Part shown: positions 927 through 17,359 of the stretch, one piece after another
Numbering within the stretch: the stretch's first letter is position 1
Layout: each line of letters starts with the position of its first letter
Assembly: GCA_009841725.1 (NCBI GenBank)
Contig: VYGS01000035.1
Span: 1 to 45,026 of the forward strand
Origin: Gammaproteobacteria bacterium
GTDB taxonomy: Bacteria > Pseudomonadota > Gammaproteobacteria > Arenicellales > Poriferihabitantaceae
DNA length: 45,026 nucleotides
Direction of reading: 5' to 3'
Translations under genes and position numbers: made by a program
Notes under the pieces: model-generated
What the model saw: only the letters and a program-made list of their open reading frames with translations
Told to the model about the DNA's origin: nothing
Database searches by the model: none

Positions 927-961
927 ATACGCTGAACAATATCATTTCGGAGTTCGGGACA

Positions 962-2143
962 ATGGACAGGCTCAACAACGCGAAGGTGCTCATCTACAGC
1001 CACGACAGCTTTGGGTTGGGACATTTAAGGCGATGCCGCGCCATCGCCAACGCGCTGGTCGATGCCTTCAAGGGCATGTCGGTCATGATCATTTCCGGAT
1101 CTCCGATCATCAGCCAGTTCGATTTCAGATCCCGCGTGAGCTTCATCACTGTGCCCGGAGTGGTCAAACTGCGCAACGGGGATTATACATCACTCGGCCT
1201 GCACGTCGACCTGAACGAGACCCTGGCCATGCGCGCGTCGATCATCCAGCACGCCGCAGAGGCGTTCGGGCCGGATGCCTTCATTGTCGACAAGGAACCC
1301 CTCGGACTGAGAGGAGAAATCGAGTACACCCTGCGCTGGCTCAGGATGAAGGGTTGCCGGAACATCCTCGGCCTTCGGGACATCATGGATGAGAGCGAGG
1401 CGCTGCAATCCGAATGGGAAAGAAAGGAGGCGGTTCCGGCCGTGGAAAACCTGTATCACGAAATCTGGGTCTACGGCACCGAGGCGACCGGCAACCCGGT
1501 TGCGGGAATCGACCTGTCCGACCGGGTCCTTGACCGCATGCACTACCTGGGATACCTGCGTCGGGATCTGTCGTCAAATGCCCGGATACCGGAACGGTAC
1601 TCCAGGCAGCCCTATATCCTCGTCACGCCGGGCGGAGGCGGCGACGGAGAAGTGCTGGTCGACTGGGTCATCCGTGCCTACGAGTCGGACACCAACGGCG
1701 ATCTGATCCACGGTATCGTGATCGTCGGGCCGTTCATGAAGGCAAAGGCCCAGCGCGACTTCAAGCGTCGGATTGCACGAATCCCCCGGCTCGATTTCGA
1801 AGTTTTCACGAACCGCATCGAGGTGCTGATGAAACATGCCGAGGGGATTGTCGCCATGGGCGGATACAACACCTTCTGCGAGATTCTTTCCTTCGACCGG
1901 CGCGCCCTGCTGGTTCCCCGGGAAACTCCGAGACTCGAACAGAAAATCCGCTCCGACTACGCCCTGGAAAACGGTCTCGCCTCGGTTCTCTATCACGAAC
2001 ACAACGCCAACACCGGCCTCATGAGCGAAGCCCTGCATCGGCTTCCCCGCCAGCCTGCGCCTTCGCTCTCGGCTTCCCCCGGCATGCTGAGGGGGCTCGA
2101 CGGCATCATCGACCGTATCGCGATCCTGCTCAAGAACAGTTGA
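962..2143 (+). CDS. MurG-like glycosyltransferase (COG4671 type), first of a tandem pair
   Basis: The product is a 393-residue GT-B-fold glycosyltransferase resembling the predicted glycosyltransferase family COG4671, which is related to MurG/GT28. The N-terminal nucleotide-fold loop SHDSFGLGHLRRCRAIA carries the Gly-His-x-Arg signature. The C-terminal donor half has VTPGGGGDG and AMGGYNTFCEILSF, the usual places where a nucleotide-sugar is held. No signal peptide or membrane span is seen, so it probably acts at the cytoplasmic face. The ATG at 962 is preferred over an in-frame TTG at 914, because that TTG lies inside a stem-loop. The next gene overlaps its stop codon, so the two are probably translated together. 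Donor and acceptor are unknown. Confidence 0.8.
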   Translation: MDRLNNAKVLIYSHDSFGLGHLRRCRAIANALVDAFKGMSVMIISGSPIISQFDFRSRVSFITVPGVVKLRNGDYTSLGLHVDLNETLAMRASIIQHAAEAFGPDAFIVDKEPLGLRGEIEYTLRWLRMKGCRNILGLRDIMDESEALQSEWERKEAVPAVENLYHEIWVYGTEATGNPVAGIDLSDRVLDRMHYLGYLRRDLSSNARIPERYSRQPYILVTPGGGGDGEVLVDWVIRAYESDTNGDLIHGIVIVGPFMKAKAQRDFKRRIARIPRLDFEVFTNRIEVLMKHAEGIVAMGGYNTFCEILSFDRRALLVPRETPRLEQKIRSDYALENGLASVLYHEHNANTGLMSEALHRLPRQPAPSLSASPGMLRGLDGIIDRIAILLKNS

Positions 2144-3291
2144 AACCGATACTTGTCCACGTCCAGCATCTGTTCGGATCCGGTCATGTCCGGCGGATTT
2201 GCGCTCTGGCCGATGCACTGGCCGACCACGGATTCCGGGTCGTTCTTGTCAGTGGAGGACTCGCCCATCCCGAGCCATCCCGCCCGTCGATCAGCCTCGT
2301 CGAATTGCCGAGCGTCGGCGCCGGCAACGGACTGGGCGATCTCGTGGACACGCAGGGCAATCCGGTTGACGAATCGCTTTGGCGGCAACGGGCCGATCTT
2401 GTGCGCAAGACCGTGCTCGAGACCGGACCGGGCCTCATCATCACCGAAGGCTATCCGTTCGCACGCCGCCGGTTTGCCCGGGAGCTGACGGCACTGATCC
2501 GGACGGCGAAGCAGGATCTGGCGACGCCTGCAACCGTCGCCTGTTCGGTGCGGGACATCATCCAGCCCAAGAGCCGCACAGACAGGGAGGACGAAATCGT
2601 CCGGATCCTCAACGAACAGTATGACTACATTTTCATTCACGGCGAGGCAGACTTCGTTCCGCTCGACGTATCCTTCCCGAAGATGGGCAACATCCGCAGC
2701 AGGATCGTGTACACGGGATATGTGGATGCGGGCCCGCCGATCAAGCGGCCTGCCGAAAAATGTCCCGGAGACATCCTGGTCTCGGCCGGCGGCGGCATCG
2801 CAGGCAGACGCATCTATGAAACGTCGATCCGGGCGGCGTCCCTTTCGCCCGACGGATCGGGATGGACATGGCGGATACTGGTGGGAAACGCGATCGGCGA
2901 GACGGATTTCTCGACGTGGCGCCGGATGGCTCCGGAAAACGCGACCGTCGAAAGAAACCGGCCTGATTTCAGGCAATTGCTTGCCGAGTGCGGGGTCTCC
3001 GTCTCGCAGATCGGGTACAACACCGCGGTCGACCTGGTTCTGTCCGGCACGAGGGGGATCGTGATTCCCTACGAAGCGGACGGCGAGAAGGAACAGATGA
3101 TACGCGCCTCTTCACTGGAACGGCTCAATCATGTCAGGGTGCTCCGGGAAGCCGACCTGGATACCGAGACACTGACTGACGCTGTCGCCCGGTTGATGAA
3201 ATCGAAGGCCGAACCGGTTCCGCCCTTTTCACCGGATGGCACGGAACGGTTTCTCCGGGAAGTGGACAAGCTGTGCAGGCCACAGGGATAG
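2140..3291 (+). CDS. MurG-like glycosyltransferase (COG4671 type), second of the tandem pair
   Basis: The 383-residue protein has the same layout as its upstream neighbour: an N-terminal loop HLFGSGHVRRICALADAL, a middle VSAGGGIAGR loop and a C-terminal QIGYNTAVDLVLSG segment that aligns with AMGGYNTFCEILSF of the first protein. Sequence similarity outside these loops is low, so the two are old, diverged paralogues that may transfer different sugars or act as a pair. Translation appears to start at a TTG (2140-2142) whose last two bases are the first two of the preceding TGA stop, a four-base TTGA overlap typical of translational coupling. It is likely cytoplasmic. The sugar donor and acceptor cannot be told from sequence. 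Confidence 0.78.
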   Translation: MKPILVHVQHLFGSGHVRRICALADALADHGFRVVLVSGGLAHPEPSRPSISLVELPSVGAGNGLGDLVDTQGNPVDESLWRQRADLVRKTVLETGPGLIITEGYPFARRRFARELTALIRTAKQDLATPATVACSVRDIIQPKSRTDREDEIVRILNEQYDYIFIHGEADFVPLDVSFPKMGNIRSRIVYTGYVDAGPPIKRPAEKCPGDILVSAGGGIAGRRIYETSIRAASLSPDGSGWTWRILVGNAIGETDFSTWRRMAPENATVERNRPDFRQLLAECGVSVSQIGYNTAVDLVLSGTRGIVIPYEADGEKEQMIRASSLERLNHVRVLREADLDTETLTDAVARLMKSKAEPVPPFSPDGTERFLREVDKLCRPQG

Positions 3292-3400: not shown

Positions 3401-3919
3401 ATGAAACCGACAGTGTATTTTGGTACCATTGTCGGCAGTCGAACACTCTGGCGAACCGTGGACATCAACGAAGAAGCGCGCGAATTGTCACGGGTTCCGC
3501 TGTTTTCGAAACTGGATCTGTCAAAGTTGAAGCTGGTTGCGTTTACCAGCCAGCGGCTTGAACTGGGCGACGGGGAATACCTGTTCTACCATGACGATCC
3601 CTCGGATTCGGTGTACCTGGTGCTTGAGGGCGTCCTGCAGGTTACCGTCGAGCACGAGGACGGCGCAGTCGACGTCGTGGCGGAGCTCGAAAGAAACCAT
3701 CTTATCGGCGAGATGGGCGTGATCGCGAATGCGCCCCGCTCGGCCTCCATTCGTTCTTCCGGAAGCAGCGCGGTGCTCAAGATCGAGGCCGACACCTTCA
3801 TGACCCTGCTGACCGAGAATCCGAGCATGTCCCTGCACGTGATGCGGGAGTTGACCGACAAGCTGAACAAGACCCATCGCCAATTCGTGCAGCTCAAGGA
3901 GCGGATGTCTGCGCACTGA
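3401..3919 (+). CDS. Stand-alone cyclic nucleotide-binding domain protein
   Basis: This small protein (172 residues from the ATG at 3401; an in-frame GTG at 3458 is also possible) is essentially one cNMP-binding beta-roll. The first half shows GEYLFYHDDPSDSVYLVLEG. The phosphate-binding cassette reads GEMGVIANAPRSASI, with the Glu and the Arg that normally hold the ribose and phosphate of cAMP or cGMP both present. There is no helix-turn-helix after the roll, only a helical tail, so unlike CRP it should not bind DNA. It probably senses a cyclic nucleotide and acts through another protein. It lies between two glycosyltransferase genes and an HD phosphohydrolase, and a cyclase gene lies about 2.5 kb upstream. 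Confidence 0.82.
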   Translation: MKPTVYFGTIVGSRTLWRTVDINEEARELSRVPLFSKLDLSKLKLVAFTSQRLELGDGEYLFYHDDPSDSVYLVLEGVLQVTVEHEDGAVDVVAELERNHLIGEMGVIANAPRSASIRSSGSSAVLKIEADTFMTLLTENPSMSLHVMRELTDKLNKTHRQFVQLKERMSAH

Positions 3920-3923: not shown

Positions 3924-4565
3924 ATGGACACTCACCAGGCCCGATTCACAGAACTGTGGTGCTCCCATTCAAGGGCCCCGGATCGACAGGCTGCGGCAGG
4001 CATTCACCGGAGGCTTGTCGAAATGTACAGCGAAAGCTGGCGCAGCTATCACAATTTCGATCACATCCGCGCTTGCCTCCAATGGCTGGATGACTGCGGC
4101 AGACATGCCGATGACTTCGATGCGATCGAGATGGCCATCTGGTTCCACGATTGCATCTATGTCGTTGGCGCATCCGACAACGAAGCTCGGAGTCGGGATT
4201 TCTTTCTCGACGAGTCACGGGGAGTGCTCGGCGATCCCTACCGGAAGCTCGTCGCCCATCTCATCATGGACACCTGCCACAGGGACATTCCCGATTCCCG
4301 TGACGGCAAGCTGCTCGCCGACATCGACCTGACCAGTTTTGGCCTGCCCTGGGACGACTATCTCTCAGACAGTGTGAACGTGCAGAACGAGAACAGCATT
4401 CTCAAGCCGCCAACTCTCGAATCCAGGACCTATTACCTGAACAAGCTCAAGCAACGCAAGACGATCTACTACACCGACCACTATCTTCGTCACTACGAGA
4501 TGTCGGCGCAGCGGAACATCGCCCGGCACCTCGTCGAGATCCACGACCGGTATCAGCGGGACTGA
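3924..4565 (+). CDS. HD-superfamily metal-dependent phosphohydrolase (COG4339 type)
   Basis: The 213-residue protein matches the predicted metal-dependent HD phosphohydrolases of COG4339. The early YHNFDHI motif (His43, His47) and AIWFHDCIYV (His75-Asp76) supply the metal ligands, and the C-terminal part is helical (KLKQRKTIYYTDHYLR). It starts four bases after the cNMP-binding gene ends, so the two probably share a transcript. The substrate of this family is not established. A nucleotide or nucleotide-sugar phosphate is a reasonable guess given the neighbours, but that is inference. Its last 13 bases overlap the 3' end of the convergent glycosyltransferase gene. Confidence 0.75.
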   Translation: MDTHQARFTELWCSHSRAPDRQAAAGIHRRLVEMYSESWRSYHNFDHIRACLQWLDDCGRHADDFDAIEMAIWFHDCIYVVGASDNEARSRDFFLDESRGVLGDPYRKLVAHLIMDTCHRDIPDSRDGKLLADIDLTSFGLPWDDYLSDSVNVQNENSILKPPTLESRTYYLNKLKQRKTIYYTDHYLRHYEMSAQRNIARHLVEIHDRYQRD

Positions 4566-5695
4566 CCCCGTCGGGCTGTCGGCAAAACGCGGTCCAGAAT
4601 GTCGGCAACCCTGCTTCGGGCGGCCTGGAACCGGTGGTCACGAAAAAATTTCCTGCGAGCGTTCGATCGCATCCGCTCCCGGGCGGCCTGATCGCTGATC
4701 ATCGATTGCAGGCGACCGGCAAACAGCGTCCTCTCCCCGGCCGGTACCAGAAAACCGTTCGCCCCGTCCTCGATGATCGCGCCGACACCGCCGTAGTCAT
4801 ACGCCAGGGCCGGCAGGTCGTGGCTCACCGCCTCGAGCAGAGCCAGCCCAAACGCCTCGTTCACGGAGGGCCAGACGTACAGATCCGCCATGTCCAGCCA
4901 CTTGCCGACTTCGGGATCCTCGAGCTCCCCGACGAACAGGCAACGTGTCGCCATTTTGGAAAACAGGCGCTCGACCTCACGGCGGGCCGGGCCGTCGCCG
5001 ATGACAATCAGATTCCATCCCTGCCCGGGAAGCATCTCCAACACGGCGGACAACTCCCGATATGAGCGGAGCTTGTCCCCGCTTCGCATCATCGCCGCAC
5101 AGGCCAGCCATACCGCATCGGCATCGAGATTCGGGAAGCGACAGACGACTGCCTTGCGATCGGGTGTCGAAGCCGCAGAATCCGGGCCCGAGGTAAACGG
5201 CAGAATCCGCTGCAAAATGTCCGGCCCGGCAACCAGATCGCGCAGGCAATTTTCGTCAGCCGGGTTCAGGCAGAGAATCGCATCGGCCGACCGGATGCAT
5301 GCCCTTGCCCGTTCATGGCCTTCGGCCCAGCGACCCCCGGCCTGCCGGGGAGCGAAAGACGCCTCGGCGACGAGATAGGGAACGCCGAGAAATCCGGCAA
5401 GATCAAGTCCGATCCAGTCCGGAGCCTTGTGGTAGACATGGTAGACAAAGACGAGATCCAGATCCCGGGATGCGTCATCCCGCTTCAGCCGTTCCAGTTC
5501 GAGGTTCGCGGCATGCCTGATGTCCTGCTGTCTCCTGCGATCACCCCGCCCCTCCCAGCTTCTCAGGGTCGAGAGCACCACCACCTCGTGGCCGATGCTA
5601 TCGAGCAGTTCGATCAGCAGTCTCGCCATCTTGCGGTCTCCCGAGGGAACCGGATGTCCGGGAGGCTTCATCGGCGCATAGAATCCGATCTTCAT
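4553..5695 (-). CDS. GT4-family glycosyltransferase
   Basis: The 380-residue GT-B glycosyltransferase has a GT1/GT4-type C-terminal domain: VIGDGPARREVERLF, a LFVGELEDPEV loop, and the E-x7-E donor motif EAFGLALLEAVS followed by YDYGGVGAIIEDGANGFLVP. The N-terminus MKIGFYAPMKPPGHPVPSGDR is the usual acceptor-domain start with a Gly-rich loop. It overlaps the stop codon of the upstream glycosyltransferase gene by four bases (ATGA at 5692-5695), so the two form a coupled pair on the minus strand. Its 3' end overlaps the convergent HD-protein gene by 13 bases. It likely adds a sugar to a lipid-linked or surface glycan; the exact sugar is unknown. Confidence 0.85.
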   Translation of the reverse strand: MKIGFYAPMKPPGHPVPSGDRKMARLLIELLDSIGHEVVVLSTLRSWEGRGDRRRQQDIRHAANLELERLKRDDASRDLDLVFVYHVYHKAPDWIGLDLAGFLGVPYLVAEASFAPRQAGGRWAEGHERARACIRSADAILCLNPADENCLRDLVAGPDILQRILPFTSGPDSAASTPDRKAVVCRFPNLDADAVWLACAAMMRSGDKLRSYRELSAVLEMLPGQGWNLIVIGDGPARREVERLFSKMATRCLFVGELEDPEVGKWLDMADLYVWPSVNEAFGLALLEAVSHDLPALAYDYGGVGAIIEDGANGFLVPAGERTLFAGRLQSMISDQAARERMRSNARRKFFRDHRFQAARSRVADILDRVLPTARRGQSR

Positions 5696-6909
5696 CCGCC
5701 GAAATTCTCGACCAGCGGCCGAACATTCTGCTCAAGCGAGAACTGCTCCTCCATGCTCCTTCGCCCTTCCCGGCCCAGGGAATTCCTGAGGGCCGGATTC
5801 CGGCCCAGTCGGCAGATCGCCTCGGACAGCGCCTTGACGTTCCCGGATTCGACAATCAGCCCGTTGAAGTCGTGCCTCAGCAACTCGGGAATGCCGGATA
5901 TGTCTGTCGAGACGCACGGCACGCCCTGGGCCATGGCCTCCATGAGCACGTTGGGCAGCCCGTCGCGGTCTCCGTCCGAGTGGACTCTGGAGGCCAGCGC
6001 GAAAAGATCCGACCGGCGGTATTGTTCCAGCACAAGATCGAAACTCAAGGGGCCCTGCCAGTCGATCCGGCCATCCAGGTTCAGGGCGGCCGCCTGCCGC
6101 TTCAGATCCTCCAGAAGCGGGCCCGCCCCGACATGCACGAATGTCCAGTGCAGGTTCCCGGGCAGCCCTGCAAGCGCCTCGAGCAGGACATCGTATCCCT
6201 TTTTCGGCACCGCCCGGCCCACCGACAGTATCCGCACGGCGGACACCGGCGTGGAGCCGTCGTTGACGTGGTTCCGGAGCGGGCCCGGAAACCGGTCCAG
6301 ATCGAGGCCATGATAAAGCAGCCGGATGCGGCCGGGATCGCGGGCGAGTCCGGCAAGATAGTCCCGGTTCGCGGATGTACAGGTCACCAGCCATCGGAGA
6401 TCGTCGAGTTTCTCCCGGATCTCCCATTTCGGCGTTGTCCAGATGTCCTTGGCGTGGGCGGAACAGCTCCAGGGCAATCCGGACAGGATGGAGCAGTATC
6501 TCGCCACCGACGAGGGAGTATGCAGGAAATGCGCGTAGATCCATTCCCGGTCGGACGCGATCTCCCGGTAGAGGACCATCGCCTGGCCCAGCCGCCGCAC
6601 CCGATTCGCCGACATGTCCCTCGCCAGATCCCGCAAGAATACGCGCACGAACCGAACGACACGCCGGGTACACAGGGCGGCCAGCAGTCCCGAGAGCACC
6701 CTCAGGGGATGCCGGTAGAGGTATTCGGGCAAATAGACCACCGGGGCCCGAATCCTTGCATGGACGGGATGAATCTCGTGGTCGGTCGGACTGCGCAGGG
6801 AATACAGGACGAGATCCAGTCCCGCCTCCTCCAGCGCCAGCAATTCCTGGGCAATGAACGTCTCGGACAACCGCGGATACCCCTTGAGAACGACGGCGAC
6901 TCTTTTCAC
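5692..6909 (-). CDS. GT4-family glycosyltransferase
   Basis: The best start is the GTG at 6909, giving 405 residues that begin VKRVAVVLKGYPRLSETFI, a form typical of this glycosyltransferase subgroup, with AAGAG a few bases upstream. An ATG at 6984 is also in frame but has no ribosome-binding site and lies in a less conserved extension. The C-terminal domain has ILSVGRAVPKKGYDVLLEAL, VGAGPLLEDLKR and DGLPNVLMEAMAQGVPCVST, the D/E-x7-E donor site, then SGIPELLRHDFNGL. It probably elongates a surface polysaccharide or glycolipid. It is translationally coupled to the second GT4 gene. A transposase remnant begins upstream of it on the other strand. Confidence 0.85.
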   Translation of the reverse strand: MKRVAVVLKGYPRLSETFIAQELLALEEAGLDLVLYSLRSPTDHEIHPVHARIRAPVVYLPEYLYRHPLRVLSGLLAALCTRRVVRFVRVFLRDLARDMSANRVRRLGQAMVLYREIASDREWIYAHFLHTPSSVARYCSILSGLPWSCSAHAKDIWTTPKWEIREKLDDLRWLVTCTSANRDYLAGLARDPGRIRLLYHGLDLDRFPGPLRNHVNDGSTPVSAVRILSVGRAVPKKGYDVLLEALAGLPGNLHWTFVHVGAGPLLEDLKRQAAALNLDGRIDWQGPLSFDLVLEQYRRSDLFALASRVHSDGDRDGLPNVLMEAMAQGVPCVSTDISGIPELLRHDFNGLIVESGNVKALSEAICRLGRNPALRNSLGREGRRSMEEQFSLEQNVRPLVENFGG

Positions 6910-7005
6910 TGCTCTTGGGACCCCGGCTTGTTCGGTGTTAATATTGGGAATTACGTGCCTCACGGCCATTTGGACGTAACGCATTGAAAGTGTAATAATA
7001 ACGGT

Positions 7006-7362
7006 ATGATTCGGACTATCGTCAAGATTGCCAAACTGAACGCGTCGACTCACAAGAAGCTTGATGCGTTCTTGCGTCAGCAGACCGAATTGTACAATGC
7101 CGGACTTCAGGAGCGGATGGATTGCTACAAGAAGACGGGCGAGACAATTACTTTGTACGAGCAGTATGGTTCCTTGACCGAGATCCGGCGAGACTCTGAT
7201 TTCAGCCAGTACGCGGTCCAACCCCAGCGAACCGCTCTACGCACTCTCGACAAGGGCATGAAGTCGTTGGCTTCTCCCGGTGCGTCCGAGAATGTTCGTG
7301 AAGCATATGTCGCGGGGTTGCCCGGGCAGGACACGGAACGGTATGCGGCGGCCGGAGTCTAA
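7006..7362 (+). pseudogene. TnpB (IS200/IS605-type) remnant, internally deleted
   Basis: The first 87 residues (MIRTIVKIAKLNASTHKKL through QRTALRTLDKGMKS) look like the N-terminal helical part of a TnpB/OrfB RNA-guided nuclease of the IS200/IS605 group. Intact proteins are about 370-400 residues and next have a basic FFRR-type segment, but here the frame jumps to a short tail (GLPGQDTERYAAAGV) and stops. The RuvC-like catalytic residues and zinc finger are therefore absent. The tail resembles the extreme C-terminus of some TnpB proteins, so a single internal deletion could have joined the two ends; this is inference. No tnpA and no clear element ends are seen. It cannot be active. Confidence 0.7.
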
Positions 7363-7428: not shown

Positions 7429-10083
7429 TTGGAAGAAGACAGGAACAGGATAGAGCCTTCGATCTATCGCTTCATCCTCAAGCATACCACCCGCGACCAG
7501 ATTCTCATTCTCCTGATCACTCTGGTCTCCATGCCGGTGATCTATGCTTCTCTGGAGGTGCCGAAAATCATCATCAACAGCGCCATCAACGGCCGCGACA
7601 TTCCCGAAACCCTGCTGGGCATGTCGATGGACCAGATCAGCTATCTGCTGGTCCTGTGCTTCGCGTTCCTGTTGCTGGTCCTGATCGCCGGGGGTCTCAA
7701 GTACCTGAACAACGTGTACCGGGGCGTGGTCGGAGAGCGAATGCTCAGACGCTTTCGGTACGATCTCTTCTGCCGCGTGCTGCGATTCCCGAATCACCGG
7801 TTCAAGCAGGTCTCCCAGGCGGAGTTGCTGCCCATGATTACCGCGGAGACCGAGCCTCTCGGGGGATTCATCGGCGATGCCTTCGCCCTGCCCGCCTTCC
7901 AGGGCGGCCTGCTCCTGACCTATCTGCTGTTCATTTTCAACCAGGACTTCCTGCTCGGACTTGCCGCCATTGCCCTCTATCCGCCGCAGCTCTACCTGAT
8001 TCCCAAGCTCCAGGCGAAGGTGAACCAGCTGGCCAAGCGGCGCGTCCAGGCCGTCCGCCACCTGTCGGACAAGCTCGGCGAAAGCATCTCCGGCGTATCC
8101 GACATCCATCTCAACGACACGTCGCATTTCGAAAAGGCGCATGTCTCGACCCGGCTCGGCAAAATCTACCACATCCGGTTCGACATCTACAGGCGCAAGT
8201 TCTTCATCAAGTTCCTGAACAATTTCCTGGGGCAGCTGACTCCTTTCTTCTTCTATTCGATCGGCGGCTATTTCGTGATCAAGGGCGAATTGACTCTCGG
8301 CGCGCTGGTCGCCGTCCTGGCCGCCTACAAGGATCTGTCGACACCCTGGCGCGAACTGCTCAAGTTCTACCAGATCACCGAGGACGTCCGGGTCAAGTAC
8401 TCGGAAATCATCCGGCAATTCCAGCCCGAAGGCATGCTTGACCCGGACCTGCAGGAAGACCAGGACATCCGTCTGGACACGGCCGACACGACGCTTACCG
8501 CCAATGCGCTGCATTACAGCGAGGACGAGTATGTCAAGTCGCTCGATGGCGTCAGCCTCGCGATCAGGCCCGGCGAGCATCTTGCCGTCCTCGGTCCGGG
8601 CGGAAGCGGCCGCACCAACCTGGCCAAGCTGCTTGTGCGCCTGATTGCGCCCGACGGCGGCCAGGTCAAGCTGGGCGACATCAATCTCGCCGAGTTGTCC
8701 GAGTCCGTGCTGGGGCGCAGAATCGCCTACGTCGACGCCCAGTCTTTCGTGTTCAACGATACGGTCCGCGCCAACCTCATCTACGGCCTGAAAAACCGCC
8801 CGATGCGCGAGCACGAATACGACGGTGCGCAAGCGGCGGTGCGCAAACGGCAGATCTCGGATGCCGAAAGCAGCGGCAATTCCACCGACGACCTGCAGGC
8901 GGACTGGGTCAGTTTCGAGTCCGCCGGCCTCGAATCGGCGGACTCGCTTGAATCACACCTGCTGAACATTCTGAAAATCGCCGAACTCGAGCAGGATGTC
9001 TATCAGCTCGGCATGTATGCGACGATCGATCCCGAAGCGAACCCGGAATTCGCCGGGAGAATCCTTGGTGCCCGGCTGGCATTCCGGGACCGGCTTGCCG
9101 GCAGCGAACACAGCAAGCTGGTCGAACTGCTTGAGCACGATCGCTACAACGTCAATCTCAGCGTCGCCGAAAACCTGTTTTTCGGTACGCCGATCGACAA
9201 CGATCCCGACTTTGCGAAACTGGTCAAGAATCCGGCTGTCGGATCGGTCCTGGATTCGACAGGCCTTGGCGACACCCTGTTGTCGGTCGGCATCCAGGCC
9301 GCAAGAACCCTGTCGGAAATCTTCTCGGATGTGCCCGAGGGCTCCCCTCTCTTCGAGCGGTTCAGCTTCGTCGAGGCCGACCGGTTGCCTGTTCTCGCAA
9401 AAATCGCCAAACTGCCGGACGACATCCAACGGTCCGGGGTCGAGGAATCCGAAGCCGACGTGATTCTGGCGCTGGCGCTGAAACTGACCGTGGCTCATCA
9501 TCGCCTGGGCCTGATCACCGAAACCATTCAGGATGTCATCGTCTCGGCACATCTGGAACTCAGGGAGACGCTTGGCGAACAGAATGCGCTGATCGAGTTC
9601 TACGACAGCCGCCGGTTCGTCAACCGCTTCTCGATCCAGGACAATATCCTGTTCGGGCGAATCGCCTATGGCCAGGCCAACGCACGCGAGAAGATCGGCA
9701 ATCTGATCGACGAATTCATCGAAGAAACAGGCCTTCGGGGGGATATTCTGTCGGCCGGATTCAACTACCGGGTCGGCGTGGCCGGTGCACGCCTTACCGC
9801 AACCCAGCGTCAGAAACTGACGCTGGCCCGGGCGCTGGTCAAGAATCCCGACATTTTCGTGGCCAATGACGCGCTTGCTGCGCTCGACAAGAAAACGGCC
9901 GCCCGAATCCTGTCCCGGGTACTTTCCGCGGTGAAGGGAAAATCCGTGATCTGGATACTGAACGAGGCGGATGCCCTGGCGGAATTCGACCGGGCCGTCG
10001 TCATGAACAAGGGCAAGGTCCAGCTTGCCGGCACCGCTTCAGAAATCCGGAACAATCCCGAGGCGCTTGCCTTCATGAATTGA
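7429..10083 (+). CDS. ABC exporter-like protein with a degenerate, expanded nucleotide-binding domain
   Basis: The 884-residue product starts at TTG (7429); no better start keeps the conserved EPSIYRFILKHT beginning. Residues about 25-320 form an ABC-exporter-type membrane domain with paired hydrophobic segments (QILILLITLVSMPVIYAS, ISYLLVLCFAFLLLVLIAGG, FFFYSIGGYFVIKGELTLG). A nucleotide-binding fold follows, but its motifs are altered. Walker A is GPGGSGRT (389-396) with Arg395 for Lys. The signature is LTATQ (789-793) instead of LSGGQ. Walker B is IFVAND with Asn813 for Asp and Asp814 for Glu. The switch His is Asn in WILNEADAL. About 330 residues separate Walker A from the final D-loop (ALD), more than usual. 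It probably does not hydrolyse ATP normally. Neighbouring glycosyltransferases suggest a role in envelope glycan handling. Confidence 0.8.
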   Translation: MEEDRNRIEPSIYRFILKHTTRDQILILLITLVSMPVIYASLEVPKIIINSAINGRDIPETLLGMSMDQISYLLVLCFAFLLLVLIAGGLKYLNNVYRGVVGERMLRRFRYDLFCRVLRFPNHRFKQVSQAELLPMITAETEPLGGFIGDAFALPAFQGGLLLTYLLFIFNQDFLLGLAAIALYPPQLYLIPKLQAKVNQLAKRRVQAVRHLSDKLGESISGVSDIHLNDTSHFEKAHVSTRLGKIYHIRFDIYRRKFFIKFLNNFLGQLTPFFFYSIGGYFVIKGELTLGALVAVLAAYKDLSTPWRELLKFYQITEDVRVKYSEIIRQFQPEGMLDPDLQEDQDIRLDTADTTLTANALHYSEDEYVKSLDGVSLAIRPGEHLAVLGPGGSGRTNLAKLLVRLIAPDGGQVKLGDINLAELSESVLGRRIAYVDAQSFVFNDTVRANLIYGLKNRPMREHEYDGAQAAVRKRQISDAESSGNSTDDLQADWVSFESAGLESADSLESHLLNILKIAELEQDVYQLGMYATIDPEANPEFAGRILGARLAFRDRLAGSEHSKLVELLEHDRYNVNLSVAENLFFGTPIDNDPDFAKLVKNPAVGSVLDSTGLGDTLLSVGIQAARTLSEIFSDVPEGSPLFERFSFVEADRLPVLAKIAKLPDDIQRSGVEESEADVILALALKLTVAHHRLGLITETIQDVIVSAHLELRETLGEQNALIEFYDSRRFVNRFSIQDNILFGRIAYGQANAREKIGNLIDEFIEETGLRGDILSAGFNYRVGVAGARLTATQRQKLTLARALVKNPDIFVANDALAALDKKTAARILSRVLSAVKGKSVIWILNEADALAEFDRAVVMNKGKVQLAGTASEIRNNPEALAFMN

Positions 10084-10527
10084 CCGCAATCCCGGACGCG
10101 GATGGCCGAAGCACGGCTCCGGGAATGATCGATGCCGGCGGAATTTCGGCCGCTCACAGGAGTTTCGATTGCGGTACACAAATGGATCAGTTTGATGCGG
10201 ACGACTCTGGGAAATTCCCCGATATGAATAAATATTGACCTATAATCAAACCATTAAAGGACAATATATGTACCATTCTTTTTTCCGCAACGTTTCTGTT
10301 CGAATTCAGGTCCCGGGTAAATTATGCTATCCGATAATCTGATCATATAGACATATAACGAGAAATGATGCTGGCCGGAACCATCGCCCGGGCGTGAAAA
10401 CAGCCGGGATTCCGTTGCACCCCGGAAACTGCAGTCACATGTCCTGCAAGGCCCGGAAACAGTGCAGCAGCCGATGCTCCGATACACGATGGCTGGCATT
10501 TCTCGCCAACCAGAAGAGGTGAACGAA
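10084..10527. other. Long intergenic region upstream of the liv-type operon, with AT-rich promoter-like stretches
   Basis: No gene is supported here. The first part holds an imperfect GC-rich inverted repeat (TCCCGGA around 10090, TCCGGGA around 10118) without a T-run, possibly the end of the ABC exporter transcript. Bases 10220-10360 are much more AT-rich than the surroundings and contain a consensus TATAAT at 10241-10246 and other -10-like hexamers, but no convincing -35 partner. The operon that follows starts at 10528, so a long 5' leader or a promoter closer to the gene is possible. Confidence 0.5.
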
Positions 10528-11805
10528 ATGACAAACAGAACGATTGACAATAACCGCCGCAAATTTCTCAAGCAGGCTGGAGCGGGAATGGCTGCCGTCG
10601 CCGGGGCGGGGATGGTACCCCTGCGCTCGTATGCGGACGATACGCTGGTCGTGGGAATGAACATCCCGATGACCGGCGACTATGCTCCGTGGGGCCTCCC
10701 GGGCCTCTATGACTGCGAGATCATCGCCAACAACATCAATGCCGCGGGCGGTGTCGAGATCGGAGGCAAGTCCTATCAGATCAGGGTCGCCGCCTACGAC
10801 CACGCCTACGATACCGAAAAGGCCCTGCAGGGCTTCAAGAAGCTGGTTCTTGAAGACGATGCGAAAATGGTCATGATGCTCGGCGGCTCGACCGTGGCTT
10901 CCGTATTGCCATGGGCCACCCGAAAGAAGGTTCTGACCACGACGTTGCTGCCGAGCGACATCACGCCCGATTCGGACTACCTGTTCGCCACGTGCGAATC
11001 CCACCCCCTTTACAATGTCACCGGCGTCGTCTGGCTCGCACAGAACTATCCGGAAGCCAAGAAAGCCGTTATCGTGACCAACAATGATGCCGAGTACGGC
11101 CTGCAGTCGGCGGCGACCTACAAGGCGGCTTTCGAAGTCGCGGGCATCGAGGTGGTGGATGTGAATCTTCACGGTTTCGACGTGACCGATTTCGCACCCA
11201 TTGTCAGTTCCGTGCTGGCCAAGAATCCGGACATCTTCTGCATGGCCACAAGCTTCTATGTCACCCCGCTCATGGAGCAGCTCTATCATCAGGGATTCGA
11301 CGGCAAGATCATCTCCTGTACCCTCGACTACTATGAAGAGATCATTGCAAAGACCAGCGAGGAATTCGTGAACGGAACCATCTACCAGTTCCCGGATTTC
11401 GATGATCCCATGCTGAACAACGAAGGAATTCATTTTCCGGATCCCGGAGGATTCGACGCCGCATTCCGCAAGGATCATCCGAACGACTGGTCTGCGGTGG
11501 CGTGGGAGTATCCGGCAATCCTGCTCAACTGGATCGAGAACGCTCAGCGGGTCGGCAGCGGGGAGAGCGAGGATGTGGCCAAATATCTCAGGAACAACAG
11601 TCAGAATTTCGTGTTCGGCGGGGGCGATTGGTGGGGAAGCCAGTTGTGGGGGCTTGATCACGCGCTTGTCGGGCGATGGCCCGTTGTCGTGATCGAGAAC
11701 GGAAAGGCCCGTATCCAGGAGTATGGCGATCTCTCCGCCTGGCTTGCAGACCATACCGAGGTTCTTGTCCGGCACATGAAGGAACTCGGCTTGCGCACGG
11801 TATAG
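10528..11805 (+). CDS. Branched-chain amino-acid-type ABC transporter substrate-binding protein, Tat-exported
   Basis: The 425-residue protein starts at the ATG at 10528, preceded at good spacing by GAGGTG; an upstream in-frame start at 10462 lacks conserved content. It begins with a twin-arginine signal (NNRRKFLKQAGAGMAAVAG, then AlaAsp near RSYADD), so it should be folded before export to the periplasm. The mature part is a type I periplasmic binding fold (Peripla_BP_6): VGMNIPMTGDYAPWG near the start, IVTNNDAEYGLQSAATYKAA in the middle and a LVGRWPVVVIENGK end. It delivers ligand to the downstream LivHMGF-type transporter. The ligand could be branched-chain amino acids, but this family also carries urea, amides and others, so the substrate is open. 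Confidence 0.88.
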   Translation: MTNRTIDNNRRKFLKQAGAGMAAVAGAGMVPLRSYADDTLVVGMNIPMTGDYAPWGLPGLYDCEIIANNINAAGGVEIGGKSYQIRVAAYDHAYDTEKALQGFKKLVLEDDAKMVMMLGGSTVASVLPWATRKKVLTTTLLPSDITPDSDYLFATCESHPLYNVTGVVWLAQNYPEAKKAVIVTNNDAEYGLQSAATYKAAFEVAGIEVVDVNLHGFDVTDFAPIVSSVLAKNPDIFCMATSFYVTPLMEQLYHQGFDGKIISCTLDYYEEIIAKTSEEFVNGTIYQFPDFDDPMLNNEGIHFPDPGGFDAAFRKDHPNDWSAVAWEYPAILLNWIENAQRVGSGESEDVAKYLRNNSQNFVFGGGDWWGSQLWGLDHALVGRWPVVVIENGKARIQEYGDLSAWLADHTEVLVRHMKELGLRTV

Positions 11806-11825
11806 CCGCATTTCATCCTGATCAT

Positions 11826-11858
11826 TGACGGGGAGAGCCATCTGCGCTCTCCCCGTCA
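11826..11858 (+). terminator. Strong stem-loop between the binding-protein gene and livH
   Basis: A perfect 13-base-pair stem pairs TGACGGGGAGAGC (11826-11838) with GCTCTCCCCGTCA (11846-11858) around a seven-base loop. No T-run follows, so it is probably not a full terminator. Such stems between a binding-protein gene and its permease genes often protect the upstream mRNA or stop part of the transcripts, giving more binding protein than permease. That role is inferred from position. Confidence 0.6.
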
Positions 11859-11888
11859 TACTGTGGAAATCGACACGGATATTGATAC

Positions 11889-12758
11889 ATGGAACTGCTG
11901 GTACAGACCATGGTGAACGGGATCATCCAGAGCGGCTTTTATGCCTTGGCCGCAGTGGGTCTGGTCCTGATTTTCGGCGTGATGAAGGTGGTCAATTTCG
12001 CGCACGGAGAGCTGACCATGGTCGGCGCCTACTCGGTCTGGTTCTTGCACGCACAAAACGATATGCCGTTTCTGCTGACTGTCGTCACCGCGGTAGTTCT
12101 TGTTGCGATGATCGGCCTTCTGATGGAACGGTTCCTGTTCCGCCCCATGACCGATTCTCCCCTCGGAGGGCTGATCTGCTCGATCGGCGTACTCTTCGTT
12201 TTGCAGGTGGCCGCCACTCTGGTCGGAGGGGAAGGCCCTTCGAAGCAGGTTCCTCCTCCCTACGAGGGAACCCTGGTGCTGTTCGACATGCTTCGAATCC
12301 CCTATCAGAGACTGTTCAGTTTCGCGGTGGCTGCCACCACTTTGGGACTGTTGTGGTATTTCCTGACGCGAATGAGGATCGGCTGGGCGCTGCGTGCGGT
12401 CGCACAGGACCGCGAGGCGGCCTCATTGCAGGGAATCAACAGCAACCGCATGTCCATGATCGCCATGGGCGTCGGAGCCGCGATGGCGGGCCTGGCCGGA
12501 GCGCTGATGGCGCCGCTGACCAACATCAATCCCCATATGGGACACAATGTCATCATCACCGCCTTCATCGTGACCATCGTCGGCGGAGTTGGAAGCCTCC
12601 CCGGCGCCGTGATCGCGTCCGTGCTGTACGCACTGTTCCATACCTTCGTCACGACCTATTTCAGCGGCACCATCGCAACGATCTCGGGACTGGTCATCAT
12701 GGTCCTGATCCTGATTGTGAGGCCTTCGGGAATCTTGGGAAAACGGGTCACGGAATAG
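11889..12758 (+). CDS. livH: Branched-chain amino-acid-type ABC permease LivH
   Basis: The 289-residue integral membrane protein has the LivH hallmarks: the opening NGIIQSGFYALAAVGLVLIFG, then MKVVNFAHGELTMVGAY, and the C-terminal QGINSNRMSMIAMGVGAAMAGLAG, the loop that couples to the ATPase. About eight hydrophobic segments are visible, and the length is normal for the family. It forms the inner-membrane channel with the next gene product, LivM. It lies 83 bases after the binding-protein gene, beyond a stem-loop, and four bases before livM, so the permeases share a transcript. Confidence 0.9.
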   Translation: MELLVQTMVNGIIQSGFYALAAVGLVLIFGVMKVVNFAHGELTMVGAYSVWFLHAQNDMPFLLTVVTAVVLVAMIGLLMERFLFRPMTDSPLGGLICSIGVLFVLQVAATLVGGEGPSKQVPPPYEGTLVLFDMLRIPYQRLFSFAVAATTLGLLWYFLTRMRIGWALRAVAQDREAASLQGINSNRMSMIAMGVGAAMAGLAGALMAPLTNINPHMGHNVIITAFIVTIVGGVGSLPGAVIASVLYALFHTFVTTYFSGTIATISGLVIMVLILIVRPSGILGKRVTE

Positions 12759-12762
12759 CGCC

Positions 12763-13725
12763 ATGCTCGCGAAACACAGGACATTGATGACGATCGTGCT
12801 GATTCTGGCGGGGCTGCTGATTCTTCCGCACTATCTCAAGTATCATCAACAGGACTTTCTGATCTTTCTGGTCGTCAATGTTCTGGTGGTGGCCAGCTAC
12901 AGGCTTGTCACCCTCACCGGCGAGTGGTCGCTGATCCATGCGGTCATGATGGGAATCGGGGCTTATACCAGCGGCATGCTGACCAAGTTTCTCGACTTTT
13001 CATTCTGGATCAGCCTGCCGCTTGCAGGCGTTGTCGCGGGATTGACAGCAGCTTTGCTGAGCTTTCCCCTGTTCAGGACAACCCAGTTCTATTTCCTGAT
13101 CGGGTCGTTTGCCGCAGGTGAAGCCATACGCCTTTCCTGGATTCACTTCATCCGCCCGTTTGGCGGAACCAGCGGCATCAGCGCACTGCCTTCGCCGGAA
13201 CTGCTTGGCATCGATTTTCTCGAACCCATTCCCTATTTCTATCTTACGCTGGCAATTGTCACTGCCTGCCTGGTCATTCTGTACCGGATCGAGAAATCCC
13301 GTATTGGGTTGACGCTGCATGCAGTCCATTGGCAGGCCCCGCTTGCCGAATCCGTGGGCATCAATACCTGGAACTACAGGACACTCGCGTTCACAACCGG
13401 CTCGATGTTCGTGGGCATTGCCGGCGCCCTCAAGGTGCATTACATCGGCACGGTGACCCCGAACCAGTACGGGATCGGCTTCATGGTGTTCATTCTCATC
13501 TGGCTGATCGTCGGAGGATACAAGACCTTCTACGGGGCGATCCTGGGTGTGATCATCCTGTCGATACTTGATGAAATGTTCCGGGAACTGGAAGTAATCA
13601 GGCCGGCCGTCTACGGCGCCGTGCTGATCCTGTTTATCCTGTATCTTCCGGACGGGCTCGAAAGCCTGCCGCAAAAGATCGCATCCAGGATAAAGGGCGC
13701 AAGTCCGAAGGGGAGTCATTCCTGA
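12763..13725 (+). CDS. livM: Branched-chain amino-acid-type ABC permease LivM
   Basis: The 320-residue membrane protein is the second permease subunit. It has the LivM features LVTLTGEWSLIHAVMMGIGAYTSGML and, in the cytoplasmic loop that meets the ATPases, AESVGINTWNYRTLAFTTGSM, followed by IGFMVFILIWLIVGGYKTFYGAI. The charged end (KIASRIKGASPKG) is cytoplasmic. It starts four bases after livH, and its TGA overlaps the ATG of livG by one base, which indicates coupled translation. It should pair with LivH in the inner membrane. Confidence 0.9.
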   Translation: MLAKHRTLMTIVLILAGLLILPHYLKYHQQDFLIFLVVNVLVVASYRLVTLTGEWSLIHAVMMGIGAYTSGMLTKFLDFSFWISLPLAGVVAGLTAALLSFPLFRTTQFYFLIGSFAAGEAIRLSWIHFIRPFGGTSGISALPSPELLGIDFLEPIPYFYLTLAIVTACLVILYRIEKSRIGLTLHAVHWQAPLAESVGINTWNYRTLAFTTGSMFVGIAGALKVHYIGTVTPNQYGIGFMVFILIWLIVGGYKTFYGAILGVIILSILDEMFRELEVIRPAVYGAVLILFILYLPDGLESLPQKIASRIKGASPKGSHS

Positions 13726-14486
13726 TGTCCATGCTGCAGGTCAAGAACGTGTCCAAGCAGTTCGGAGGGCTTGCGGCACTTGACAACGTGAACTTCAGTG
13801 TCGAGAAGGAACACATTCACGGGCTGATCGGACCGAACGGAGCCGGCAAAAGCACCATGTTCAAGATCATTTCCGGCTTCAGTTCACCCACTGCCGGGAG
13901 CATCATTTTCAATGACTCAAGCATCACCGGATTGAAATCCAGCCGCATCGCCGAAGCCGGCATCATCCGGACATTTCAGCAAACCACGCTGTTTCATGAA
14001 ATGACGGTTTTCGAGAATGTCCTGATCGGCACGCACAACAGTTCGAGAACCAATATCCTGTCTGCCCTGATCGGATCCGACCGAAAGAGGCAGCAGAGCG
14101 CCAAGAACCATGCCATGGAGGCGATCCGGTTCATGGGGCTTGAAGACAGAATGCACCAGATTGCCTCCGAGTTGCCGCTGGGCTCCAAGCGTGCGCTCGT
14201 GATCGCCGTGGCACTTTCCGCAAAACCCAGGCTACTGCTTCTGGATGAGCCGTTCGCGGGAATGAATCCCGAAGAAACCAATACGATGATGGCCCTGACC
14301 GAGAAAGTGCGCCAGTCGGGCATCACCATCATACTGGTCGAGCACGACATGAAGGCCGTAATGGGGTTGTGCGACCGGTTGACCGTGCTGAACTTCGGAA
14401 AAGTCCTGGCCCAGGGCACCCCAAAGGAGGTCCGGAACAACCCCGAGGTCATCAACGCCTATCTGGGAGGTGGAAAGAGCACGTGA
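13725..14486 (+). CDS. livG: ABC transporter ATPase LivG
   Basis: The 253-residue ATPase begins MSMLQVKNVSKQFGGLAALDNV. It has Walker A GPNGAGKST, the LivG-type ...FQQTTLFHEMTVFENVLIG segment, a signature region LPLGSKRALVIAVALS in place of a canonical LSGGQ (normal for LivG) and Walker B LLLLDEPFAGMNPEE with switch His in VEHDMKAVMG. Its start overlaps the livM stop (TGATG) and is preceded by AAGGGGAG. It powers uptake as a heterodimer with LivF at the cytoplasmic side of LivHM. Confidence 0.92.
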   Translation: MSMLQVKNVSKQFGGLAALDNVNFSVEKEHIHGLIGPNGAGKSTMFKIISGFSSPTAGSIIFNDSSITGLKSSRIAEAGIIRTFQQTTLFHEMTVFENVLIGTHNSSRTNILSALIGSDRKRQQSAKNHAMEAIRFMGLEDRMHQIASELPLGSKRALVIAVALSAKPRLLLLDEPFAGMNPEETNTMMALTEKVRQSGITIILVEHDMKAVMGLCDRLTVLNFGKVLAQGTPKEVRNNPEVINAYLGGGKST

Positions 14487-15190
14487 AACTCTCTGTCAGC
14501 AATCTCGAGGTCAGCTACAACAAGGTTTCGGCATTGCGGGGAATCAGCTTTGAAGTCGATTCCGGCGATTTCGTCACCCTGATCGGCTCAAACGGCGCCG
14601 GAAAGAGCACGACCCTGCGCACGATATCCGGACTGGTCAAACCTTCCGGTGGCGAAATTACTCTCGACGGAGCGCGCATCGATAATCTCGATCCCGATGT
14701 CATTGTCCAAAAGCGCATCGGCCACGTGCCGGAAGGACGGCGCATATTCAAGGATCTCAGCGTGTCGGAAAACCTGATGCTGGGCGCCTACATCCATCGT
14801 GACCGAAACACGGTCGAAAAGACGATAAAGCAGGTTTTCGAGCACTTTCCAAGACTTCATGACAGGCGGAACCAACAGGCCGGCACAATGAGCGGAGGGG
14901 AGCAGCAGATGCTGGCAATCGGCCGGGCACTGATGTCCCGCCCCAAGATTCTGCTGCTGGATGAGCCCTCCCTGGGGCTGGCTCCGATCATCGTCAAGGA
15001 AATCGGCGAATTCCTCAGCGAACTCAACTCACAGGGAGTCACGGTCATTCTCGTGGAACAGAATGCCGACCTGGCATTGCAACTGGCGCGATTCGGCTAT
15101 GTGCTCGAGACCGGCCTGATTGCCATGGCCGACCGGGCTGCGAATCTTGCCGACAACGAACATGTGAAAAAGGCTTATCTGGGGATATGA
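14483..15190 (+). CDS. livF: ABC transporter ATPase LivF
   Basis: The 235-residue ATPase starts at the GTG at 14483, which overlaps the livG stop as GTGA and has GGAGG 12 bases upstream; longer in-frame starts lie inside livG and lack family content. It reads VKLSVSNLEVSYNKVSALRG, Walker A GSNGAGKST, the typical VPEGRRIFKDLSVSENLMLGA, signature MSGGEQQMLAIGRALM and Walker B LLLLDEPSLGLAP, with switch His replaced by Gln (VEQNADLA), as is normal for LivF. It completes the LivHMGF transporter. No gene follows on this strand. Confidence 0.92.
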   Translation: MKLSVSNLEVSYNKVSALRGISFEVDSGDFVTLIGSNGAGKSTTLRTISGLVKPSGGEITLDGARIDNLDPDVIVQKRIGHVPEGRRIFKDLSVSENLMLGAYIHRDRNTVEKTIKQVFEHFPRLHDRRNQQAGTMSGGEQQMLAIGRALMSRPKILLLDEPSLGLAPIIVKEIGEFLSELNSQGVTVILVEQNADLALQLARFGYVLETGLIAMADRAANLADNEHVKKAYLGI

Positions 15191-15215: not shown

Positions 15216-16361
15216 TCACTTGTACGGGTCTGCCGCATCCCTCAGTCCGTCACCCAGAAAATTGAATGCCAGAATCACGACAATTACCGGAACGACGGGC
15301 AGCATCAGCCAGGGATAAAGCGCCACCACGTTGATGTTCTGCGCCTCGTTGAGCAGCACTCCCCAGCTCGTGATCGGAGAACGGAGCCCGAGACCCAGAA
15401 AGCTCAGAGCCGTCTCGCCGAGAATCATTCCGGGAATCGACAGGGACGCCGAGGCAATCAGGTGGCTCATGAACCCGGGCAGCAGATGGCGTCCGATGAT
15501 CCGTCCCGGTTTCGCGCCCATCAACTGGGCGGCGGTACAGTAATCCTCCTCGCGCAGAGACAGCAGCTTGGAACGAACCGCCCGCGCGAGGCCGGTCCAG
15601 TCAAGCAGAGCCAGGATCAGGGTGATGCCGAAAAACACCAGGATCGGACTCCATGTCACGGGCAAGGTCGCAGACAAGGCCATCCAGAGCGGCAATTCCG
15701 GAAAGGATCTCAGGATCTCGATCAGCCGCTGGATGGCATTGTCCACGAATCCACCGTAATATCCCGCAATTCCGCCGATCACGATGCCGAGGATGAAGCT
15801 CAGGACAATCCCGACCAGCCCGATCGTGAGAGAAATCTTCGCGCCGTGGAGAATCCTCGAATACATGTCCCGGCCGAGCCGGTCGGTCCCGAGCAGAAAC
15901 AGGTGTCCGTTTGCGGCCGGACAGAACAAATGGACATCTGTTTCGACAAGGCCCCAGAAATCATACGCATCGCCCCGACAGAAAAACCGGATCTTCTGAA
16001 TATCGCTCCGATCGGGCGAGTACTCCCTCTTGAGGTTCTCCATGTTGAGTCGGTAGGTATGGCCGTACACGAACGGACCGATGAATCCGCCGTCGTGAAA
16101 CAGGTGCACCCGCTGGGGCGGAGCATAGATGAAATCGGTGTTCCGGGTGTGAAGGTTGTAGGGAGAGAGAAACTCGCAAAAGAATGCAAACAGGTAGATG
16201 ACAACCAGCACGATGCTTGAGCCGACGGCCAGCCGGTGGCGCTTGAGCTTGAGCCACATCAGCCGCCACTGCGAAGAGAGGTAAAGCCGTTCCTGCTCCG
16301 GGGTCAGCTTCTCGACCGAATGCGGGTCGAAGGGCTCTTGTGAAACGAAATGCGTTGTCAT
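15216..16361 (-). CDS. Oligopeptide-type ABC permease, OppC/DppC family
   Basis: The 381-residue permease has one N-terminal membrane segment (AVGSSIVLVVIYLFAFFCEFLSP). A roughly 100-residue periplasmic stretch follows (FIYAPPQRVHLFHDGGFIGPFVYGH and on), longer than in E. coli DppC. The BPD_transp_1 domain starts at LLGTDRLGRDMYSRILHG and contains the EAA loop YCTAAQLMGAKPGRIIGRHLLPG that touches the ATPase. Its start overlaps the upstream permease stop by four bases (ATGA, 16358-16361). With the OppB-like subunit it forms the channel for a peptide or related solute. The long periplasmic insert marks a subgroup whose substrate is not known to me. Confidence 0.88.
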   Translation of the reverse strand: MTTHFVSQEPFDPHSVEKLTPEQERLYLSSQWRLMWLKLKRHRLAVGSSIVLVVIYLFAFFCEFLSPYNLHTRNTDFIYAPPQRVHLFHDGGFIGPFVYGHTYRLNMENLKREYSPDRSDIQKIRFFCRGDAYDFWGLVETDVHLFCPAANGHLFLLGTDRLGRDMYSRILHGAKISLTIGLVGIVLSFILGIVIGGIAGYYGGFVDNAIQRLIEILRSFPELPLWMALSATLPVTWSPILVFFGITLILALLDWTGLARAVRSKLLSLREEDYCTAAQLMGAKPGRIIGRHLLPGFMSHLIASASLSIPGMILGETALSFLGLGLRSPITSWGVLLNEAQNINVVALYPWLMLPVVPVIVVILAFNFLGDGLRDAADPYK

Positions 16362-17359
16362 TTGGCCGCTCCCCCCTGCAGCCGGATGCGCGGATCCAGC
16401 AGGGCCAGCAGCAAATCGGAAACCATTACACCCACCACCGTCAACAGCGCCAGAAACATCAGGAACGAACCGGCCAGGTACATGTCCTGGCTCTGCAGGG
16501 CATTTAGCATCATCGGGCCCGTGGTCGGCAGGGAAAGCACGATGGCGGTGATTTCCGCGCCGGAGATCACGCTCGGGAGCAGGCTGCCGATATCGGCGAT
16601 GAAAAAGTTCATCGCCATCCGGAGAGGATATTTGCGAACCAGCTTTTTCTCTTCCATCCCCTTCGCCCGGGCCGTGACGACATACTGTTTCTGAAGCTCG
16701 TCGAGAAGATTCGCCCGAAGCCTCCGAATCATCCCGGCCGTTCCGGACGTCCCGATCACCACCACCGGTATCCAGAGATGCTCGAGCACCGACAGAAGCT
16801 TGTCCACGCTCCAGGGCTGATCAATGTACTCGGGATCCATCAGGCCGCCGATCGAGGTTCCGAAGTACACGTTGGCAAGATACAGCATGATCAGTGCCAG
16901 AAGAAAGTTCGGCGTCGCAAGGCCTATGAAGCCGACAAAGCTGAGTCCGTAGTCCCCCCAGCTGTACTGGTGGGTCGCCGAATAGATTCCGATCGGAAAG
17001 GCGATCGCCCATGTGAACAGGATGGTCACCACGGAGATGATGACGGTCAGGAACAGGCGGTCTCCGATCACCTCGTTCACCGGCAGGCCGTATTCGAAGG
17101 AGTACCCGTAATCCCCCACCAGCATGCCGGACGCCCACACGAAATACTGTTCGTACATCGGCTTGTCCAGCCCGTACTCAGCCCGGAGAAACTCGATCCG
17201 GTCGGGATCGACGGACTCCCCCTGACTCTCCAGCTCGGCGATGTAGGTTTCAAGATAGTCGCCCGGCGGCAACTGGATGATGACGAACACCAGCACACTG
17301 ATCACGAACAGTGTCGGGACCATGAAAAGCAGCCGCTTGAGAAGATATACGGCCATCAT
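16358..17359 (-). CDS. Oligopeptide-type ABC permease, OppB/DppB family
   Basis: The 333-residue membrane protein has the OppB/DppB start MMAVYLLKRLLFMVPTLF and LPPGDYLETYIAELESQG. The middle reads GLDKPMYEQYFVWASGMLVGDYG. The EAA loop is QYVVTARAKGMEEKKLVRKY. About six hydrophobic segments follow the family pattern. It is four bases coupled to the downstream OppC-like gene and lies 27 bases after the binding-protein gene, so the set is one minus-strand operon (ATPase fusion, binding protein, B, C). The substrate is probably a peptide or peptide-like solute. Confidence 0.9.
   Translation of the reverse strand: MMAVYLLKRLLFMVPTLFVISVLVFVIIQLPPGDYLETYIAELESQGESVDPDRIEFLRAEYGLDKPMYEQYFVWASGMLVGDYGYSFEYGLPVNEVIGDRLFLTVIISVVTILFTWAIAFPIGIYSATHQYSWGDYGLSFVGFIGLATPNFLLALIMLYLANVYFGTSIGGLMDPEYIDQPWSVDKLLSVLEHLWIPVVVIGTSGTAGMIRRLRANLLDELQKQYVVTARAKGMEEKKLVRKYPLRMAMNFFIADIGSLLPSVISGAEITAIVLSLPTTGPMMLNALQSQDMYLAGSFLMFLALLTVVGVMVSDLLLALLDPRIRLQGGAAK

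Follow-up and report, generated by a model that had tools for sequence, protein, structure and literature searches.

What is an ABC exporter kept for when the catalytic motifs of its own ATPase domain are altered? The question is raised by a gene in the window, as we call the whole stretch of 45,026 nucleotides analysed here. The open frame of 884 codons claimed by the initial annotation was borne out; it begins with TTG, and a start codon is found at the equivalent position in same-genus relatives. The gene and its parts are:

7429–10083, plus strand: putative pseudo-ATPase ABC exporter of 884 aa with TTG start, assigned by Pfam, predicted structure and structural superposition
7429–8433, plus strand: membrane domain, residues 1–335, the family's most conserved part
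8476–8799, plus strand: first half of the nucleotide-binding domain (NBD), residues 350–457
8593–8616, plus strand: altered Walker A, GPGGSGRT, residues 389–396
8737–8739, plus strand: Ala437 at the position of the Q-loop Gln
8800–9630, plus strand: helical insertion inside the NBD, residues 458–734, about 277 residues
9631–10080, plus strand: second half of the NBD, residues 735–884
9793–9807, plus strand: altered signature, LTATQ, residues 789–793
9865–9870, plus strand: altered Walker B, N813 and D814
9961–9963, plus strand: N845 at the position of the switch His

Fold and catalytic motifs of the protein

In a Pfam search, the protein matched ABC_membrane (PF00664) at residues 61–298 (E 9.6e-16) and ABC_tran in two separate parts (E 2.8e-16). 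A structure predicted with 63 homologues (mean pLDDT 82.7, with residues 168–184 of the membrane domain as a low-confidence part) superposes as a whole chain on solved exporters over about 435–445 residues with Z 27–28, while the two predicted NBD halves together cover 238 of the 239 residues of the ComA NBD (Z 28.9, rmsd 1.9). By these superpositions the 884-aa protein is an ABC exporter in its fold, an assignment which is unambiguous and beyond chance. The PF00664 match and the superposition also satisfy the six-helix membrane-domain criterion of type IV exporters, and the match to ComA satisfies that of an ABC NBD fold.

None of the motif criteria for a catalytic NBD of type IV exporters is fulfilled. 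GPGGSGRT stands in place of the Walker A consensus GxxGxGK[ST], LTATQ in place of the LSGGQ signature, and N813, D814 and N845 occupy the positions of the Walker B Asp, the catalytic Glu and the switch His, so that the four substitutions listed by the initial annotation (Walker A Lys to Arg, LSGGQ to LTATQ, Walker B Asp/Glu to Asn/Asp, switch His to Asn) are all confirmed. A further change that had escaped it is the loss of the Q-loop Gln (Ala437). Its more sweeping statement that every catalytic motif is altered is correct at the level of motifs and too broad at the level of residues, where Thr396 of Walker A and the D-loop Asp820 remain.

Motif loss, remodelling and constraint across the family

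The window comes from a gammaproteobacterial genome whose closest named relatives are metagenome bins under the labels Gammaproteobacteria or Arenicellales. One scan of species-representative genomes returned 526 stretches encoding relatives, and of 398 genomes sampled from the phylum, 27, including that of the window, contain a strong match. Named members come from Azospirillum, Nisaea, Sneathiella, Thalassobaculum, Motiliproteus, Zooshikella, Rhizobium, Sinorhizobium, Ensifer and Ruegeria; no family-specific NCBIfam model was found. The match in Sinorhizobium meliloti 1021 (pSymB 842126–844432) begins only at query residue 135 and that in strain 2011 (pSymB 841727–844435) at residue 1, possibly a frame difference between the records. 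Divergent members of about 1010–1040 aa with a C-terminal extension (L042–L047 and L135) were also seen.

Motifs were counted in 139 full-length homologues, no two identical, of alpha- and gammaproteobacterial origin; the counts come from automatic alignments, in which a one-residue offset is possible in single sequences. None of the 139 shows SGG at the core of its signature. Walker A GK is found in 62, the Mg-binding Ser/Thr in 33 and both together (GK[ST]) in 16, so that ATP binding may survive in some members; the Q-loop Gln is present in 26, the Walker B Asp in 24, the catalytic Glu in 53 and the switch His in 19. No homologue retains more than four of the seven catalytic features (n = 139). 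The Walker A glycines are mostly retained in the family, and the Ser/Thr position of the motif is occupied by Asp in 33 and by Glu in 17 of a set of 76 sequences. MsbA from related genomes, taken as a control, shows LSGGQ and [IV]AHR in 30/30 cases each.

Close relatives with normal motifs would have refuted the initial annotation, which had proposed a homologue alignment as a check. In the six same-genus homologues (67–79% identity), the Walker A Lys is replaced by Arg in a GSGR context in five and the sixth reads SSR, while LTxxQ, a Walker B Asn-Asp and a switch residue other than His are found in all six. The replacements recur in all six and throughout the wider family, and the refuting result was sought and not found, the six relatives and the 139 homologues being degenerate. 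We are confident, short of certainty, that this is a conserved pseudo-ATPase family. As similarity to the protein of the window was the basis for collecting its members, a canonical sister family may have been overlooked; none turned up within the range searched.

The same counts bear on the possibility that the domain is an atypical yet working ATPase, in which substitute residues bind and hydrolyse ATP. The mostly kept Walker A glycines, the Thr396 and D-loop Asp of this protein and the Lys, Glu or His that some members retain are compatible with it. A substitute mechanism should, however, show conserved residues of its own, whereas the motif positions hold many different ones, the Mg-binding Ser gives way to Asp or Glu in most sequences, the SGG core is absent from all, and MsbA of related genomes remains canonical. 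This possibility is considered unlikely.

Beyond its motifs, the NBD is interrupted by an insertion which was not described in the initial annotation and which separates the half with Walker A and Q-loop from the half with signature and Walker B. Predicted alone, residues 496–735 reach a pLDDT of 87.9. Three repeat units cover the region:

8701–9024, plus strand: repeat unit R0, residues 425–532, first copy of the Q-loop/helical segment
9034–9348, plus strand: repeat unit R1, residues 536–640
9508–9828, plus strand: repeat unit R2, residues 694–800, extending into the signature motif

In profile–profile comparison R1 matches R2 with E 2e-17, R0 matches R2 with 3e-6 and R0 matches R1 with 1e-5. 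Against the MsbA NBD, R0 and R2 both fall on one Q-loop-to-helical segment, with E 3e-8 for R0 and 4e-11 for R2; R1, in the middle, reaches only 6e-4. From the repeat matches and the MsbA matches together it follows, at the level of profile evidence, that the NBD was enlarged through repetition of its own Q-loop/helical segment; remodelling of the ATPase domain by such internal repetition is, to that extent, shown. The homology of the insertion to the helical segment rests on this comparison, because the insertion folded alone found no clear match in the PDB, the best relevant row being McjD 428–496 with Z 2.8.

That this copy is simply decaying would fit the loss of all its catalytic motifs, and can practically be ruled out. 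In 100 genomes, mostly of the same order, a search found dozens of full-length homologues, almost none of which contains an internal stop; the motif pattern is family-wide, the locus is conserved, and dN/dS between close relatives is about 0.02 for the membrane domain and about 0.05–0.2 for both NBD halves and the insertion. Decay was rejected on the homologues, the dN/dS values and the conservation of the locus. The earlier proposal that the protein serves some other purpose is supported by the lack of close homologues with normal motifs, the family-wide degeneracy and the purifying selection; the roles it suggested (nucleotide sensor, scaffold, gate driven by a partner) stay conjectural. As the NBD is itself still under purifying selection, it must have some function, which can only be guessed at. 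The order of constraint in the pseudo-exporter is inverted relative to the usual one, the membrane domain standing far above the ATPase domain: in 17 genomes which yielded both proteins, the pseudo-exporter reaches an identity of 70% for the membrane domain, 41% for the NBD core and 37% for the insertion; the MsbA values are 45% (membrane domain) and 56% (NBD).

Membrane domain and members without an ATPase domain

Seven open reading frames of 313–413 aa encode homologues which end after the membrane domain. Each is the sole family match within its surrounding 7–9 kb, with no NBD of the family there, and in several genomes it is a second family member. In a membrane-domain tree with MsbA as outgroup these seven proteins fall inside the family (family support 100/100) and form a clade of their own (89/83). 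Some branches of the tree are long, and this clade is probably, though not certainly, a single unit. With the NBD-less proteins as queries, 369 gammaproteobacterial genomes yielded no further such members, only family frames of at least 530 aa at E 1e-35, so that the clade seems uncommon in that sample. The existence of a sister clade lacking any ATPase domain points to the membrane domain as the part that does the work.

Of the NBD-less members, three are found in copper-resistance loci (with multicopper oxidase and CopB, one of them also with PCuAC) and a fourth next to an RND pump. These four membrane-domain-only relatives (L200:3920–5161, L201:3785–4984, L202:3788–4987 and L196:3689–4930) bear a His-containing N-terminal extension.

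A set of charged and polar positions is common to the core family, the divergent branch and the NBD-less clade, namely E/D43, K/R46, K91, E103, R107, R110, E140, E142, Q195, R205, R210, R250, K257 and K261, all of which except K/R46 and K257 are found in all or nearly all sequences. The residues to which proton coupling is attributed in MsbA are not among them. D41, E149 and D252 of MsbA correspond to S41, Q158 and K261 here, so that the acids expected of a proton-coupled membrane domain like MsbA-MD are lacking; the comparison was made with a sequence taken as the membrane domain of E. coli MsbA. Coupling, if there is any, would need other residues, since none of the three acids is kept. Other acids conserved in the membrane domain are E43, E140, E142 and D150.

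A membrane domain acting without its ATPase is not without precedent, as the truncated membrane domain of MsbA transports ethidium and chloramphenicol via proton coupling (PMC4979069). The likeness to the membrane domains MsbA-MD, which moves ethidium in a proton-coupled manner (PMC4979069), and LmrA-MD is limited in that those are laboratory truncations, whereas the present case is a natural family with a pseudo-NBD and an NBD-less clade, without the coupling acids of MsbA. The homodimeric type IV exporters MsbA, BmrA and Sav1866 likewise have six membrane helices ahead of an NBD, and it is with these that the whole chain superposes at Z 27–28; the present protein differs from them by having all motifs altered, a repeat-derived NBD insertion of about 277 residues and a membrane domain more conserved than its NBD.

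Conserved locus, possible partners and proposed function

The genes around the exporter and a downstream importer are:

914–2143, plus strand: GT_A, glycosyltransferase, weak GT28 C-terminal match just under the cut-off
2140–3291, plus strand: GT_B, glycosyltransferase, GT28 C-terminal
3467–3919, plus strand: stand-alone cyclic-nucleotide-binding (cNMP) protein, start uncertain, ORF opens at 3236
3924–4565, plus strand: HD-type protein by sequence motif only, no Pfam match
4553–5695, minus strand: GT_C, GT4 glycosyltransferase
5692–7221, minus strand: GT_D, GT4 glycosyltransferase
15216–16361, minus strand: Opp/Yej-like importer, permease A
16358–17359, minus strand: Opp/Yej-like importer, permease B
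17387–19297, minus strand: Opp/Yej-like importer, substrate-binding protein
19290–21272, minus strand: Opp/Yej-like importer, double ATPase with normal motifs
21271–22182, plus strand: polysaccharide deacetylase

In a survey of 80 loci from alpha- and gammaproteobacteria, where the flanks reached no further than 8 kb and part of the contigs were shorter still, homologues of GT_D were present in 69, of GT_C in 66, of the cNMP-binding protein in 59 and of the remaining pair of glycosyltransferases in 50 and 47. An importer ATPase was scored in 42/80, where the 'ATP2' matches may include other ABC ATPases, and PDA2, a conserved gene without a Pfam match, called deacetylase-like from its sequence alone, in 39/80. 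The same block, together with the four-gene importer, is found on Rhizobium plasmids. The cNMP gene is adjacent and on the same strand in 48 of 60 loci, with its phosphate-binding motif GE...PR[ST]A intact. Positions 10462–15190 of the window, between the pseudo-exporter and the Opp-like importer, hold what reads as a complete importer of branched-chain amino-acid type; it looks like a local insertion, since the two flanking systems are about 2.4 kb apart in a relative (L051). A 118-aa ORF resembling the start of IS605-type OrfB, without a Pfam match above the cut-off, lies just upstream of the exporter (7006–7362), and a stand-alone ATPase resembling the AAA/DUF4143 type by sequence only lies at 30870–32324. 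Replacement of MsbA was rejected as a role for the protein, as a canonical MsbA is encoded on another contig (G000:C123) of the same genome.

A partner could in principle restore ATP hydrolysis, if the ATPase were supplied, in the manner of TM287/288 or TAP, by a canonical half-exporter encoded elsewhere. Heterodimeric exporters often have degenerate sites (PMC7756269), and several canonical exporters are encoded in the same genome. On the other hand, no canonical exporter half, scored as an exporter membrane domain from outside the family, was found within about 8 kb at 81 loci, by which a partner next door is rejected and a distant one is not excluded. TM287/288, TmrAB, TAP and MsRv1273c/72c illustrate that evolution tolerates degenerate NBD motifs (PMC7756269), but these keep one catalytic site intact and a partner, whereas in the present protein degeneration affects the signature and both Walker motifs at once, so that both composite sites would suffer, and no partner gene is nearby. 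The NBD-less sister clade also fits poorly, and we regard a heterodimer as very improbable.

The protein might alternatively transport nothing, its membrane domain serving as a scaffold or sensor which anchors and regulates glycosyltransferases under cyclic-nucleotide control. The conserved glycosyltransferase locus and the adjacent cNMP-binding protein with its intact motif speak for such a role; against it, charged and polar residues of the membrane domain are among the most conserved of all, the NBD-less clade included, and four NBD-less members adjoin copper or RND genes and not glycosyltransferases. We give it little credence. In bacteriocin-type export loci (TIGR03896) a cNMP-binding protein likewise accompanies an exporter, but the one of the window is only a weak match to that model, far under the cut-off, and the exporter at issue is catalytically degenerate and set in a glycosyltransferase locus.

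Without strong conviction, we lean towards a pseudo-ATPase exporter in which the membrane domain does its work with no ATP hydrolysis of its own, substrate and energy source being inferred. That the membrane domain functions without ATP is itself an inference, made in the absence of transport, ATP-binding, ATPase or expression data, and could equally prove right or wrong. The membrane domain would form a (homo)dimer and act as a gradient-driven or facilitated transporter, or as a flippase. Its load might be a product of the glycan that the neighbouring glycosyltransferases make, or a lipid-linked precursor of it. The remodelled NBD might be a platform for regulation and docking, with the adjacent cNMP-binding protein as the likeliest to dock, which is again a guess from gene order. 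A glycan substrate, guessed from the same kind of evidence, is no more than a tentative suggestion. The link may not be general, as members such as that of Ruegeria are not beside glycosyltransferases; this divergent member (L135) has accD and a gene for folylpolyglutamate synthase in its vicinity. In Rhizobium leguminosarum, pRL110056 is reported to be an O-antigen enzyme required for root colonisation (PMC11103875); it is near the homologue by tag number only, the tag not having been matched to coordinates. SMb20804/20805 of Sinorhizobium meliloti are connected with capsule and NCR sensitivity (PMC5539429), without their membership in the exporter locus having been shown.

The family probably transports or gates something at no ATP cost of its own. 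It is possible, if still doubtful, that it represents a widespread ABC exporter lineage that gave up ATP, with a gradient-driven or cNMP-gated membrane domain, a regulatory NBD built by repetition and an NBD-less branch recruited to copper and RND loci. For several members the annotation 'ABC transporter ATP-binding protein' is likely wrong as to function. Whether membrane domains of ABC exporters can transport without ATP has so far been judged from artificial truncations (MsbA-MD, LmrA-MD), to which this family adds a natural experiment, an exporter with a broken ATPase in many species and the membrane domain alone in some; as it occurs in the model organisms Sinorhizobium meliloti, Rhizobium leguminosarum and Azospirillum brasilense, the question is directly testable.
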